A stretch of 64,000 bases of DNA from IMG/VR virus record IMGVR_UViG_3300045049_000234, positions 47,180-111,179 of that record; one strand, 5' to 3'. The stretch comes from a virus. Of this stretch, positions 1 through 4,504 are shown one piece after another. The notes under the pieces are model-generated. The model saw only the letters and a program-made list of their open reading frames with translations, made no database searches and was not told the origin of the DNA. Position 1 is the stretch's first letter, and the number at the start of each line of letters is the position of its first letter. The position numbers and the translations under genes are program-made.

Positions 1-1593
1 GTCGATCGACGCCTTGGAGTAGCCCGTGGTGTCGATCCCGAACAGCGGCACCGACGCCGGGACCGCGTCGGACACCGACGTGGCGCGCGGCGCGACCAGC
101 CCGGACCGGCGCACGCCGTACCCGCCGCTGTAGTACCCGCCGTACGCGAACGCCTGGCCGTCGGTGACCACGATTACCCGGTCGTGGCCCTTGAACGTGG
201 CCTCGATGGCGCCGATGGTCTGCGTGCCGTGGCCCACCTCGCCGATGCGCTTGGTGAACCGGTCGATCTCGCGCAGCATGCTGCCGCCCAGCGCGATGTC
301 GTGCTGGAACACGCCGTCCGCGTAGCCGTACAGGCTCACTTTGCCGCCGGTGCGGTACGCCAGCGCCACGCCGATCAGCGCGCCGATGTCCACGTGCCGG
401 ATCTGCGACTTGCCAGACACCGGGGACTGCATGGAGCTGGAGGTGTCCACCAGCACCAGCGTGCGCCCGTCCAGGAGCGGGATGTTCGCCGTGGCCGCTG
501 CCAGCGCCTGCTCCAGCGCGTGACCCCACCGCAGCGACGGTGCGGCCTTGTACGCCGACAGGAACCGGTACGGGAACTGCCGAGAGCGCGCCACTTCCGC
601 CGGGTCGGCGATCTTCGCCGCCACCTGCGCCGCGACCTTGTCAGAGACCTTCGCCTCGTCGAAGTTGCGCAGGTTGCGGATCAGCGCCATGTAGCCCATC
701 GACGGGATGATCGCCTCCCACGCGGCGCGGTCCATCGGACCCTGAAGCCAACCGGCCAGGATCTCCCACGTGATGCCCGCGTCGTTCAGACGCTGCGCCC
801 CGCCGTCGGCCAGCAGGACCGCACGGCGCTCCGCCACCGGCAGCGCCATCAGATCGCGGTTCGCGCGCAGGATGCGCAGCGACTCGGGAACGTCCAGCTC
901 CGGCTCGTGCGGCTTGGACACCACGTAGTCGAACAGGTCGTGCTGCCACGGCGCCTTGATGGTCTGCGCGGAGTCGTCGCGGTCGCCCGAGTGCGTCAGG
1001 TCCAGCACGCGGCGCCACGAGAAGCCGGGGTGCGCCACGTCGCCGTACTTGATGAAATTGCGCTCGTTGCCCATGCGGATCATGGCGTCGGCGATACCGC
1101 GCTTGAGCGGCTTGGGCAACGCCATCCCGTAGCGCGACGTCCAGTACGCCAAAAGCTCGCCGGGCTCGTCCGGGCGCTGGAGCGCGTCGCGCACGACGCT
1201 GCGCGCGGAGATGGTCGGCAGCGGGTACTGCGTGCCGGTGCGGCCGGTGCCCATCTCGTCGCGGCGCGCGTGGACGTACTCCGCCGCCGCGACGACCGAC
1301 GCCGAGCGCATCAGGCCCTCGCTGCGAAGCCACTTGATGAACCGCGCGGTCCAGTCGGGGTGCTGGACGGCGCACTGACGCACCAGGTTGCGGAACCGGA
1401 CGTCGCGGTCGCCCGCCTTCTCGTAGAACGTGTCCTCGCCGACCATGTTCGTCACGGCCAGCAGGAACAGATCGGACTGCGGGGTGCGGGTCCACGCGGC
1501 GCCGCCCTCGTGGGTGGTGGTGCGCTCGTCGGTGGTCCGGATGACGCCCGGCGCAGTGGTCTGCTTGCCGAGCTGCTTGGTGAACTTCGCCAC
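1..1593 (-). CDS. rsr: Ro60/Rsr TROVE-domain RNA-binding protein (C-terminal end cut by window)
   Basis: Reading from a GTG preceded by GAGAGGAACCC, 531 residues are visible and the frame is still open at the window edge. The first ~360 residues read as a TROVE/HEAT-like ring domain. A von Willebrand A domain follows, with the MIDAS motif DTSSS near residue 383 and a second acidic motif (VVTDG) further on. Ro60 proteins are rings that bind Y RNAs and misfolded RNA ends; bacterial Rsr works with Y RNA and exoribonucleases such as PNPase. Family length is about 530-540, so little is missing. It lies 49 nt downstream of, and in the same direction as, nine structured RNA units with tRNA-like domains, the expected place for Y RNA partners. 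Family call is from motifs read by eye; function is inferred from the family and context. Confidence 0.9.
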   Translation of the reverse strand, partial: MAKFTKQLGKQTTAPGVIRTTDERTTTHEGGAAWTRTPQSDLFLLAVTNMVGEDTFYEKAGDRDVRFRNLVRQCAVQHPDWTARFIKWLRSEGLMRSASVVAAAEYVHARRDEMGTGRTGTQYPLPTISARSVVRDALQRPDEPGELLAYWTSRYGMALPKPLKRGIADAMIRMGNERNFIKYGDVAHPGFSWRRVLDLTHSGDRDDSAQTIKAPWQHDLFDYVVSKPHEPELDVPESLRILRANRDLMALPVAERRAVLLADGGAQRLNDAGITWEILAGWLQGPMDRAAWEAIIPSMGYMALIRNLRNFDEAKVSDKVAAQVAAKIADPAEVARSRQFPYRFLSAYKAAPSLRWGHALEQALAAATANIPLLDGRTLVLVDTSSSMQSPVSGKSQIRHVDIGALIGVALAYRTGGKVSLYGYADGVFQHDIALGGSMLREIDRFTKRIGEVGHGTQTIGAIEATFKGHDRVIVVTDGQAFAYGGYYSGGYGVRRSGLVAPRATSVSDAVPASVPLFGIDTTGYSKASID

Positions 1594-1642
1594 GGTCGGG
1601 TTCCTCTCTACGTGCGTGTGCTGTGCGGGAGGAACCGGCAGG

Positions 1643-1782
1643 GGTGACCCGAGATTGAAGCGACGGCGGCTGTTTTGACTGATGCTCTACCAAGTGAGCT
1701 ACCGAGGGTAAAGCCCCCCGGATTGGGATCGAACCAATAACCTTCAGTTCCGAAGTATCCGCCATCAGGGCACCGGGTCACC
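1643..1782 (-). ncRNA. Y-RNA-like tRNA-mimic unit 9 (tRNA opened in the anticodon loop)
   Basis: Outer stem GGTGACCCG/CGGGTCACC (9 bp), then GTGCC, inner helix GATGGCGG/CCGCCGTC, then TACTTC. Inside, the tRNA 3' half comes first: anticodon-stem strand ACTGA, T arm with TTCGATC, acceptor strand CCGGGGG. A 6-nt linker follows, then the 5' half: CCCTCGG, D arm, TCAGT. The halves pair correctly only if the tRNA is read as circularly permuted with its opening in the anticodon loop. TTCAATCT precedes the closing outer stem. It cannot act as a normal linear tRNA as written. Last unit before the Ro60 gene. Confidence 0.85.
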
Positions 1783-1790
1783 GGTGCTGG

Positions 1791-1921
1791 ACCTCCCGAG
1801 GTTGGGGTGTGCGGGACTAAGTTGCCTTAGACCATCTCGGCCACACGCGGCGGACCGCGTGACAGGATTCGAACCTGCGTTCGTTTGCACGAAGTAAGTT
1901 CCGCACGGGGCACCGGGAGAT
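1791..1921 (-). ncRNA. Y-RNA-like tRNA-mimic unit 8 (leucine/serine-type tRNA body)
   Basis: Outer stem ATCTCCCG/CGGGAGGT with one G-U pair, GTGCC, inner helix GTGCGG/CCGCAC, TACTTC. The domain holds a short variable-arm-like hairpin (TTCG/CGAA), a T arm with GGTTCGAATCC, acceptor CACGCGG paired with CCGCGTG through a 4-nt linker, and a D arm of the long-variable-arm tRNA type. No anticodon stem-loop can be drawn; the inner helix takes its place. CCAACCT precedes the closing stem. Confidence 0.8.
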
Positions 1922-1956: not shown

Positions 1957-2098
1957 GCGCCCGAGGTTGAGTCGGTGATCGTTGTTCTCTGTTGTGCTGC
2001 CGTTACACCACACGCCCCAGGTGGGGGGCGCGCCGGATTCGAACCGGACCTCCGGTTCCCTAGACCGGTGAAGTAACGATCTCCTTGGCACCGGGCGC
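1957..2098 (-). ncRNA. Y-RNA-like tRNA-mimic unit 7 (proline-type anticodon arm)
   Basis: Outer stem GCGCCCG/CGGGCGC (7 bp), GTGCC, inner helix GATCGTT/AACGATC extended by GG/CC, then ACTTC. The 3' part contains a full anticodon arm CCGGT-CTAGGGA-ACCGG, whose loop is of the proline type (AGG at 34-36). A T arm with TTCGAAT and acceptor GCGCCCC follow. A 6-nt linker joins acceptor GGGGCGT and a D arm. The order is permuted, opened between D arm and anticodon arm. Confidence 0.82.
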
Positions 2099-2112: not shown

Positions 2113-2253
2113 GTGTCCGAGATTGAGGTCGGACGATCGTGACGTTAGGTGCTCTGGGCCACTGAGCCACAGGGGACACAGTCCCCCGCCGGGATTCGAA
2201 CCCGGGTCACCCGCTTAAGAGGCGAAGTAACGATCATCCTGGGCACCGGACAC
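2113..2253 (-). ncRNA. Y-RNA-like tRNA-mimic unit 6 (lysine-type anticodon arm)
   Basis: Outer stem GTGTCCG/CGGACAC, a different sequence from its neighbours but still fully paired. GTGCC and inner helix GGATGATCGT/ACGATCGTCC (10 bp, one G-U) follow, then TACTTC. The anticodon arm is TTCGC-CTCTTAA-GCGGG; the loop is the canonical lysine CTT loop. The T arm (CCGGG, TTCGAAT, CCCGG) and acceptor CGGGGGA come before a 5-nt linker, then acceptor TCCCCTG and D arm GCTC/GAGC. Permuted order, opened between D arm and anticodon arm. Confidence 0.87.
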
Positions 2254-2267
2254 GGCATCCGTTTAGT

Positions 2268-2412
2268 CCACCCCGAGGTTGAATCAGAGACCGGTATTCT
2301 TAAAGAAGGACTCGAACCTTCACCTCCGGCTTTTCAAAGCCAGCGTGCTGCCAATTACACCACTCGGCCATGAGTGGCCGAGGAAGTATCGGTATCAATG
2401 GCACCGGGATGG
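2268..2412 (-). ncRNA. Y-RNA-like tRNA-mimic unit 5 (glutamine-type, opened at the T-stem/acceptor junction)
   Basis: Outer stem CCATCCCG/CGGGGTGG with a G-U pair, GTGCC, inner helix GATACCG/CGGTCTC with one mismatch, TACTTC. The acceptor 3' strand TCGGCCA comes first, then a CTCA linker, acceptor 5' strand TGGCCGA, D arm, anticodon arm carrying the glutamine loop CTTTGAA, and T arm with TTCGAGT. Three extra bases after the anticodon loop enlarge it or let it re-pair into GGCTT/AAGCC. The breakpoint differs from units 6, 7 and 9. Confidence 0.82.
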
Positions 2413-2421
2413 ATGCCTGGC

Positions 2422-2533
2422 CCCTCCCGAGATTGAGGTGGCCGACGGAGAACGGGACTTGAACCCGCAGCGTTTCCTTGGAAGGGAAATTTCGAACCAT
2501 TCGAAGTAACCGTAGACCTGGGCACCGGGAGGG
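2422..2533 (-). ncRNA. Y-RNA-like tRNA-mimic unit 4 (glycine TCC tRNA in normal order)
   Basis: Outer stem CCCTCCCG/CGGGAGGG (8 bp), GTGCC, inner helix GGTCTACGG/CCGTCGGCC. Inside is a tRNA in natural order: D-like arm, anticodon arm TTTCC-CTTCCAA-GGAAA (glycine TCC loop), and T arm GCGGG-TTCAAGT-CCCGT. The acceptor stem is replaced by, or merged with, the inner helix, so the ends are not free to be charged. Confidence 0.8.
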
Positions 2534-2542
2534 AATTCTATG

Positions 2543-2621
2543 GTGTCCCCGAGATTGAAAGCGGCGGCCGGTGTGTTTCCATTTGGAGTGAAGTAACCGA
2601 TTGCCTGGGCACCGGGGACAC
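2543..2621 (-). ncRNA. Y-RNA-like unit 3 (minimal; isolated tryptophan-type anticodon stem-loop)
   Basis: Only 79 nt. Outer stem GTGTCCCCG/CGGGGACAC (9 bp), GTGCC, inner helix GGCAATCGG/CCGGCCGCC with two mismatches, TACTTC, TTTCAATCT. The insert is a single weak stem-loop with loop CTCCAAA, the canonical tryptophan CCA anticodon loop, flanked by TTCA/TGGA. There is no D arm, T arm or acceptor. Confidence 0.75.
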
Positions 2622-2627
2622 GTACGC

Positions 2628-2750
2628 GGCATTCCCGAGGTTCACGGTGGATCGACGACGGGGGTTCTCCGTCCCCACGCTCCGCGTGAGGGTTCCCCCT
2701 ATGGTGCACTGGTGGAGGAAGTATCGCCGGTCCGAGGCACCGGGAATGCC
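2628..2750 (-). ncRNA. Y-RNA-like unit 2 (branched insert without a T loop)
   Basis: Outer stem GGCATTCCCG/CGGGAATGCC (10 bp), GTGCC, inner helix GGACCGGCGA/TCGTCGATCC with one mismatch, TACTTC, GTGAACCT. The insert of about 58 nt has a GC hairpin (CACGC/GCGTG) inside a GGGGG/CCCCC helix, but no recognisable T loop or anticodon loop. Same scaffold, different cargo. Confidence 0.72.
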
Positions 2751-2774
2751 CACTGTTCAGTTATCAAGAAGCGC

Positions 2775-2854
2775 GTCCCCGAGATTAAGGGCGACGTCCG
2801 GAACGGGATTCAAATTTACAGTTTGAAGTAGCCGGTCGTCTGGGCACCGGGGAC
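2775..2854 (-). ncRNA. Y-RNA-like unit 1 (minimal; isolated tyrosine-type anticodon stem-loop)
   Basis: First unit after the promoter, 80 nt. Outer stem GTCCCCG/CGGGGAC, GTGCC, inner helix GACGACCGG/CCGGACGTC with one mismatch, TACTTC, TTAATCT. The insert is a perfect hairpin TTCAAA-CTGTAAA-TTTGAA. Its loop is the canonical tyrosine GTA anticodon loop. No other tRNA arm is present. Confidence 0.75.
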
Positions 2855-2939: not shown

Positions 2940-3458
2940 TTAGCCGCGCGCCGCGATGTCGGCGAACATGCGCACGCTGTCCACGATGTCGTCCGTCAGC
3001 CCCGTCGCCGGGTCCGCCGTGATCAGCAGCGTGGGCGCGGTGTGCGCCGTGCGCCGGTTGCCGCGCGTGAGCATGCCCATGGTGAACCCGTCGTCGATCC
3101 ACGCGAACGGCCGGATGCCCGCGTACTGCAACACGTGATCCCACTTCCATTCGGCGGTCACGTCGTACTCGGAGAACCGGCGATTCATCGGCGCCACCGG
3201 CATCGGGTCCAGCCCGATCAGCGGCGCCAGGTGGGTGTTCGCGCGGTCGTTCCACGTGGTCGCCCACACGTGTTCCACGATGTCGTCCAGCGACCGCACG
3301 CGCTTGACGTCGCCGGGGTCCAGCACGAGCGGCACCGGGCGCGGCATGCCGGGCAGGTCGATCGTGTGGCGCAGCCACTCGCCGCCGGTCACGTTCTGGA
3401 GCGGGTAGCGGTTGAACACCCCGTCCACATCCCAGAACAGCAGCGGCTTGCCGGTCAC
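2940..3458 (-). CDS. HAD-superfamily protein of the 'Swiss army knife' RNA-repair type
   Basis: 172 residues from a GTG that overlaps the upstream stop (GTGA). The HAD nucleophile motif DVDGV is at residues 10-14. The conserved stretch HVWATTWNDRAN in mid-protein and WIDD later match the HAD domain that Pfam names after Swiss-army-knife RNA-repair proteins, common in actinobacteria. HAD enzymes of this kind are predicted to remove terminal phosphates from nucleic acids. It is translationally coupled to the vWA protein and lies just upstream of the RNA array and Ro60, which supports a role in RNA end processing; that role is inference. Confidence 0.75.
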   Translation of the reverse strand: MTGKPLLFWDVDGVFNRYPLQNVTGGEWLRHTIDLPGMPRPVPLVLDPGDVKRVRSLDDIVEHVWATTWNDRANTHLAPLIGLDPMPVAPMNRRFSEYDVTAEWKWDHVLQYAGIRPFAWIDDGFTMGMLTRGNRRTAHTAPTLLITADPATGLTDDIVDSVRMFADIAARG

Positions 3459-4504
3459 CGCGCCTCGGCCGGGATGATCAGCAGCTTGTCGCCGTCGTAC
3501 ATCTTGCGGTTCACAGACGTGGACTGCACGAAGATCGTGTACTCCGGGTTGATGTCCGGGCTCACCCGCGTGTCGATGTCCGGCAGCCCCAGGATGTCCC
3601 GCGCGCCGTCGCCGACGTACACGACGCCGGTCTTCTTCTCGTGGACGGCGATGCGCTTGGTGCGCTGGATCGTGACACGGCGCTTGAGTTCGTAGAAGGC
3701 CGCGCCGATCCGGTAGTCCATGCGCAACTGATCCACAACCCAGTCACGGATCTCCGCGTCCTCGGTCACCGTGGTCAGCGTGTAGGCGCTGCCAGGCAGC
3801 GGGGTGAGCGTGGAACGTACGGTGTCCCGGTTGACGGCGTCGATGCCGGTGGAGAAGATCGCCCGGCTGCCGCGCACGCCCTGCGCCCGGTTCGCCATGA
3901 ACCGGTCGGTGGCGGCGCGGATCGTGTTGCCGACCTCCCGCACACCGTGCGCGGACGTGGTGTCCCACACGGCGATGTTGTCGGCGGCGAACCCGAACCG
4001 CTTGGCCTCGAACACGCCCATCTGGTTCGGCACCATCACGGCCACCGTCCAGTTGTCCGGCAGTGCGCGCAGCCGCGCGGACAGGTGCGCGGAGGTGTGG
4101 ATGCGGCTGCGGTTCTCCTCGCCGTCGGTGATCACGTAGACCAGGAACGCATGGTCGCCGTAGATCTCCGGCGTCTTGGCCAGATCATCCAGCGCCGTCA
4201 TGGTCGCGTCGATCAGCGCCGTGTTGCGCTCGGCGCGGTAGTGCTCCGCGATCGAAGGCAGGCGCAGCACGTCCCGATCGTAGAACACGCATTCGGCGGC
4301 CTGTTTGACGCCGGGCACGGCCTCGTTGAACACGTAGACCGTCGCCCGCGTCTCCTGGTCCATCACAGTGGACCGTTCGGCCAGGTGGGACACCATGCCA
4401 TCCGTGACGGCCACCACGTCGCGGGCGAACCGGGACATGGACAGCGAGCCGTCCAGCACGATGGCGATGTGGTTGATGTAGCCCTGTGTGGGGTGTTTGT
4501 TCAT
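3455..4504 (-). CDS. von Willebrand factor A domain protein
   Basis: 349 residues. The N-terminal ~210 residues form a vWA domain. The metal-site motif DGSLSMS is near residue 18, and VITDGEENRS near residue 130 is the second acidic element. The C-terminal part is basic and ends in a small beta-rich segment (YTIFVQSTS). The same fold forms the C-terminal half of Ro60, so two vWA proteins flank the RNA array. Start ATG follows AAAGGAACCC. Overlap with the HAD gene by 4 nt implies coupled translation. The ligand is unknown. Confidence 0.75.
   Translation of the reverse strand: MNKHPTQGYINHIAIVLDGSLSMSRFARDVVAVTDGMVSHLAERSTVMDQETRATVYVFNEAVPGVKQAAECVFYDRDVLRLPSIAEHYRAERNTALIDATMTALDDLAKTPEIYGDHAFLVYVITDGEENRSRIHTSAHLSARLRALPDNWTVAVMVPNQMGVFEAKRFGFAADNIAVWDTTSAHGVREVGNTIRAATDRFMANRAQGVRGSRAIFSTGIDAVNRDTVRSTLTPLPGSAYTLTTVTEDAEIRDWVVDQLRMDYRIGAAFYELKRRVTIQRTKRIAVHEKKTGVVYVGDGARDILGLPDIDTRVSPDINPEYTIFVQSTSVNRKMYDGDKLLIIPAEAR

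Follow-up and report, generated by a model that had tools for sequence, protein, structure and literature searches.

Switching anticodon loops on Ro60-adjacent Y RNA units of viruses and actinobacteria

Why would Y RNAs carry anticodon loops? The question is raised by a 64,000-nucleotide stretch of viral DNA (here the window), bases 47180-111179 of the 111-kb virus record IMGVR_UViG_3300045049_000234, in which nine Y-RNA units follow one another on the minus strand, from 2852 down to 1645, directly upstream of a Ro60/TROVE gene. The array holds six canonical anticodon stem-loops: Tyr GTA, Trp CCA, Gly TCC, Gln TTG, Lys CTT and Pro AGG. A sequence-only reading of positions 2422-2854 had named these six loops, and all are present on the minus strand; that interval contains only units 1-4 and so misses the Gln, Lys and Pro loops. 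The claim that units 1 and 3 consist of nothing but the anticodon stem-loop was borne out. Such units are carried by this virus of soil bacteria and by many actinobacteria and their phages.

Genuine anticodon loops on a shared stem

Ro60 relatives were present in viral contigs, in Streptomyces, Gordonia and Arthrobacter phages and in actinobacterial genomes. The 2.5 kb upstream of Ro60 was scanned at each, which gave 405 distinct units at 152 loci, with 223 units from 81 viral loci and 182 from 71 genome loci, and the units are conserved in phages and hosts alike. All 405 share TGC-N-AG...UACUUC / UCUCGG and a closing stem, a candidate Ro60-binding sequence. In the window a unit starts with CCGGTGCC, carries the conserved TACTTC about 12 bases on, and ends with AATCTCGG or AACCTCGG, which pairs with the unit start and closes the Ro60-type stem (CCGGUGCC...UACUUC / AAUCUCGG); the cargo on this stem differs between units. 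Judging from homology and position, the units probably bind Ro60. The window's own motif (CGGTGCC...ACTTC) was also tried as a probe for relatives and recovered few loci, because the 5′ stem sequence varies between groups.

Hairpins anchored at the conserved UACUUC and closed by five perfect pairs were counted in the 405 units and in shuffles. A 7-nt loop was found in 120 units, where each other loop length was found in 13-39 and the shuffles averaged 15 (maximum 23). U33 was present in 109 of these 120 loops (shuffle 3.4), and U33 together with a purine at position 37 in 94 (shuffle 1.7). We then compared 124 loops, chosen by their stem only (5 bp, 7-nt loop), with 53 anticodon loops from three actinobacterial genomes. 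Letter-for-letter copies of a host anticodon loop made up 64 of the 124 (52%), against a chance expectation of about 0.2-0.6%. U33 occurred in 87% of the stem-chosen loops, A38 in 77% and A34 in only 10%, and position 37 depended on position 36 as it does in real tRNAs (mutual information 0.55; shuffle maximum 0.15). Fifty-seven units are minimal, with an anticodon stem-loop and no tRNA body, and therefore the loop can be the sole part of the tRNA that is retained. Among the small Streptomyces units, a 7-nt loop was found in 23 of 31, all with U33. We conclude that the loop is selected to resemble a real anticodon loop.

RNAfold z-scores of single units were unremarkable, and the case is therefore built on comparative evidence. 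No complementarity that would allow loop-loop kissing within one array was seen by eye. 'Ser CGA' loops in our first anticodon table were mostly misread T loops (TTCGANT) and were dropped before the final counts. Pro-like AGG loops recur, at 2057-2063 of the window and at loci L164, L168, L171 and L177, despite the rarity of A34, and AGG is missing from the collected host tRNA loops.

Permuted tRNA bodies with capped acceptors

The nine units of the window are as follows.

2775..2852, minus strand: unit 1, Y stem with a bare anticodon stem-loop, Tyr (GTA); CTGTAAA at 2815-2821 on a 6-bp stem, TTCAAA/TTTGAA
2631..2745, minus strand: unit 2, Y stem and a long hairpin with a 14-nt loop; neither anticodon loop nor tRNA body
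2545..2617, minus strand: unit 3, Y stem with a bare anticodon stem-loop, Trp (CCA); CTCCAAA at 2582-2588 on a 4-bp stem
2423..2530, minus strand: unit 4, Gly (TCC) anticodon stem-loop, CTTCCAA at 2478-2484; Rfam tRNA, 32.2 bits, and fold
2269..2409, minus strand: unit 5, Gln (TTG) tRNA mimic, CTTTGAA at 2333-2339; Rfam tRNA, 36.7 bits, model positions 6-65
2113..2251, minus strand: unit 6, Lys (CTT) tRNA mimic, CTCTTAA at 2215-2221; ARAGORN tRNA-Lys(ctt) once un-permuted, and fold
1957..2096, minus strand: unit 7, Pro (AGG) tRNA mimic ordered as unit 6, CTAGGGA at 2057-2063; ARAGORN tRNA-Pro(agg) once un-permuted
1792..1918, minus strand: unit 8, permuted tRNA body with a degenerate Cys-like GTGCAAA at 1884-1890 in an imperfect stem
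1645..1778, minus strand: unit 9, classical YrlA-like (T arm, acceptor, D arm), no anticodon loop; RF02553, 45.7 bits, model positions 1-114

For unit 3, RNAfold alone favours a shifted hairpin. In unit 4 the T arm follows the anticodon arm in normal tRNA order and there is no separate acceptor stem. Units 5-7 are complete tRNA mimics. In units 6-9 the anticodon arm, if there is one, comes first and is followed by the T arm, the 3′ strand of the acceptor, a short cap, the 5′ strand of the acceptor and the D arm, as in a tRNA cut open between its D and anticodon arms; in unit 6 this reads as anticodon arm, T arm, acceptor hairpin and D arm. Unit 5 is opened instead at the joint of T stem and acceptor, and runs from the acceptor 3′ strand through a CTCA cap to the acceptor 5′ strand, D arm, anticodon arm and T arm; its acceptor and cap can be read directly from the sequence as CTCGGCCA-CTCA-TGGCCGAG.

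The same architecture holds among the relatives. Once un-permuted, their units are called by ARAGORN as Asn, Gln, Glu, Pro, Ser, Thr, Arg, Ile and other tRNAs, and of 233 units, 150 have a T arm followed by an acceptor hairpin with 7 of 7 bp paired, where shuffles gave 2.8; the units thus show the permuted, YrlA-like order of T arm, acceptor and D arm. The cap is usually 3-8 nt long, most commonly 4 nt, and often TCCG, TTCG or CTCG. Capped units have no free acceptor end for CCA, a feature expected of a functional tRNA, and therefore the mimics should not work as tRNAs. GenBank tRNA annotations overlap Y-RNA units upstream of phage Ro60 in VanLee (Arg, L042:5650-5721), GiJojo (Arg, L045:5769-5843), Alone3 (Ser, L046:5774-5847) and Frankenweenie (Pro, L047:5745-5835); these are probably not real tRNA genes.

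The nearest known relative is YrlA (RF02553; PDB 6CU1), a Salmonella Y RNA that is circularly permuted relative to tRNA (PMC11472068) and mimics only the D, T and acceptor arms (PMC8394870). YrlA likewise lies beside a Ro60 gene and joins a Y stem to a permuted T arm, acceptor and D arm. It is described without an anticodon arm, whereas many units here carry a real, switching anticodon, some are an anticodon arm only, and the arrays reach nine units. The window units resemble YrlA and are not classed as members: the best score, 45.7 bits in unit 9, and the partial match of 29.8 bits in unit 6 fall below the RF02553 gathering score of 69 bits, and no match above threshold was found in eight relatives.

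Anticodon switching in Lentzea and Streptomyces

In ten Lentzea genomes an orthologous unit has an anticodon arm that is invariant outside positions 34-36, and the anticodon itself is TTT, GTT, GTA, GCA or CCT. Of 125 three-base windows across this unit, only the anticodon attains its step count.

A pattern search of 392 genomes recovered one Streptomyces unit in 86 of them; the pattern fixed positions 33 and 38 and GGGG, so that invariance there is by construction, and genomes with a divergent unit were left out. Steps were counted on the Ro60 gene tree for 72 genomes. Positions 34, 35 and 36 took 22, 17 and 1 steps, respectively, and position 32 took none, where the 133 other columns had a median of 0 and a mean of 2.6. 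The few columns that match the pace of 34-35 apparently belong to the acceptor cap and the linkers, judging from the step string. The triplet switched at least 34 times, which is near the mean of 39.5 obtained with random tip labels. Sister pairs differed at the anticodon in 17 of 23 cases, at 0.32 per site versus 0.053 elsewhere, and one pair is identical across the unit except at the anticodon. Recombination between array and Ro60 could raise the step counts, but it does not explain why nearly identical pairs differ at the anticodon alone. The 31-39 pair is compensated, being A-U in 65 and G-C in 6.

The switching is confined to anticodons that exist. The Streptomyces states were CAT, GAT, CTT, TTT, GTT, GCT, CCT and TCT, which are all eight real non-Thr anticodons ending in T, plus one CAA. 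AAT, ATT, ACT and TAT were never seen in the 72 genomes, nor was any A34. Thr anticodons (NGT) are absent from the switching Streptomyces unit (L409-L468), yet Thr loops occur in viral units.

The only fast-changing structured part of this Y RNA is a genuine anticodon, held to those the host possesses, and it seems to be a specificity element that can be switched. Rapid switching among real anticodons is what would be expected of a bait under changing selection. The change of anticodon from one bacterial species to the next, with the rest held fixed, suggests that the loops are exchangeable bait for some anticodon reader. The sequence-only reading had held that a failure of homologous arrays to conserve the loops would speak against decoys. 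This test does not refute them: between arrays the loop architecture is kept and the identity of the anticodon switches.

Possible roles of the loops

The obvious class of anticodon reader is nucleases, since tRNA-cutting defences and toxins are common. A loop selected to be anticodon-like, a tRNA body and acceptor that do not work as such, and a fast turnover of identity together fit a bait for anticodon readers, and a bait or decoy for anticodon-reading nucleases is our best explanation, tentatively held. The array would supply the Ro60 protein encoded next to it with several Y RNAs, and each Ro60-type stem would present a tRNA mimic, which is a lone anticodon stem-loop in some units and an acceptor-capped, circularly permuted tRNA in others. 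The loop would serve as the recognition element, with the anticodon as its switchable specificity. Nucleases that recognise anticodons, whether toxins, defence tRNases or those of competitors, would be bound by such a Y RNA and might cut it, and either real tRNAs would be spared or the nuclease would be brought to Ro60 and its partners. We infer that the units are expressed and that their target is a nuclease. A wider and more doubtful proposal is that Ro60 serves both actinobacteria and their phages as a platform for tRNA-mimic bait with exchangeable anticodons, which switch rapidly in an arms race against tRNA-cutting toxins and defence nucleases.

There is precedent for bait, as the tRNA-like domain of YrlA was earlier proposed to inhibit an anticodon nuclease by competition (PMC7790460). 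Phage tRNAs are also known to counter tRNA-cutting defences (PMC10264068, PMC12409363, PMC11555353). Phage tRNAs allow evasion of anticodon nucleases in T5 (against PARIS and retron-Eco7) and in mycobacteriophage C1, and like the units here they present the anticodon loops of the targeted tRNAs. They work as tRNAs, and their loops often resist cleavage, whereas the units are capped mimics on a Ro60-type stem, often with host-identical loops, and occur on host chromosomes too. RNA ligase and kinase genes near some phage Ro60 genes also count for the bait reading.

Several observations weigh against it. In roughly half of the units no anticodon loop can be recognised. PrrC (PF13166), which the sequence-only reading had offered for the Lys loop, scored above cut-off in none of 60 unit-carrying Streptomyces genomes, including those with Lys anticodons, and no nuclease partner was found. 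No defence island is evident around the host loci examined, and the neighbours at the two Streptomyces loci checked are ordinary chromosomal genes (PhoX, GntR, PALP). Salmonella YrlA, which has no anticodon loop, was not cut by a nuclease active there. The decoy idea first put forward for this array is thus supported in part: the array carries genuine anticodon-loop mimics on a Ro60-type Y stem, on which a nuclease may act.

Possible, though unlikely, is that the loops make Ro60 a targeting adaptor, docking the particle (possibly Ro60-PNPase) onto ribosomes at particular codons, synthetases or modification enzymes so as to direct RNA decay or sequester the docked partner. Y RNAs tether Ro60 to PNPase in cells, tRNA-modifying enzymes act on YrlA, and the loops retain the full 32-38 context of real tRNAs. 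The Streptomyces unit keeps U36-A37-A38 (38 fixed by the search pattern), which could also serve t6A37 modification. A need for modification alone would free position 34, yet A34 and TAT are missing from the 72 genomes, and other units have G36-G37 loops, so t6A is not general. Near-random switching at 34/35 between sister species is likewise not predicted by an adaptor alone.

We consider it improbable that the units are sensors or traps, in which cleavage of the loop by an anticodon nuclease would go beyond mere competition and release or activate the Ro60 particle or a downstream response. In Salmonella, tRNA fragments turn on Ro60/Y-RNA operons that include RtcBA, and RNA-repair genes lie close to several phage Ro60 genes, but no signalling component was seen beside the host or phage loci looked at. 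The rsr-yrlBA-rtcBA RNA-repair operon shares with these loci Ro60, Y RNAs and a link to tRNA damage; it differs in that RtcB/RtcA were not found among the genes examined beside actinobacterial loci.

The loop statistics and the restriction of switching to real anticodons make chance, relics and concealed functional tRNAs unlikely. Some algae and archaea have permuted tRNA genes, and on this precedent permuted units might be processed into working phage or host tRNAs, a very improbable outcome in our view. ARAGORN does recognise the un-permuted units as tRNAs, and the unit anticodons of the window virus overlap its ordinary tRNAs only at Tyr GTA. Against this reading, other phages duplicate anticodons that they already own, for instance Alone3 with Ser GCT and BRock with Ile GAT. 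The algal and archaeal genes share the permuted halves, but the units have their joint near 26/27 (in unit 5, between T stem and acceptor), ends sealed by the Y stem, an acceptor whose strands are joined by the short cap (often UUCG, UCCG or CUCG in the RNA) and no sign of processing to a mature tRNA; many lack an acceptor or body altogether, and the anticodon switches while the body stays constant. Neutral relics, that is, fragments of tRNA that Y RNAs took up and that have since drifted, would account for the widely varying completeness of units, some with no tRNA feature at all, and are disfavoured to the point of being hardly credible by exact host-loop copies far above chance, the compensated 31-39 pair, and fast change limited to 34/35 and to real anticodons.

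The Ro60/Y-RNA kind and permuted tRNA mimicry, as in YrlA, are already known. Anticodon arms on Y RNAs, arm-only units and anticodon hypervariability were not found in the literature searched, which covered the core Y-RNA papers in part, and intact, hypervariable anticodon loops on a tRNA-mimic Y RNA fold provisionally appear to be new. The role of bacterial Ro60 and Y RNAs gains a concrete handle, as the anticodon names the mimicked tRNA and its partner becomes directly searchable. If the loops are bait, they would be a non-protein layer of defence or counter-defence against tRNA-cutting enzymes, common to hosts and phages.

The array is flanked by an RNA-repair-type HAD open reading frame (ORF) on one side and by the Ro60/TROVE gene on the other.

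2940-3458, minus strand: HAD_SAK_2 ('Swiss army knife', RNA-repair-type) ORF, directly upstream of the array
1..1594, minus strand, extending past the window start: Ro60/TROVE gene, 572 aa, GTG start (locus L009:2555-4273); Pfam TROVE, E 7.9e-15

A 349-aa ORF with no Pfam match (3455-4504, minus strand) precedes the HAD_SAK_2 ORF. Among the phages, an RNA ligase lies directly before Ro60 in JustBecause (L048:5229-5981), RNA ligases lie about 5 kb upstream of Ro60 in Rabbitrun and Neville (L044 and L050, near position 1), and a polynucleotide kinase lies upstream in VanLee (L042:1-422). A promoter and terminator scan of the array gave no signal above chance. The inter-unit spacers at 2767 and 1949 of the window (minus strand) contain TTGA(C/T)AACTGAACA, and GACAACT occurs in 12 of 267 inter-unit spacers across all loci, against about 0.6 expected, possibly as a promoter or processing signal.
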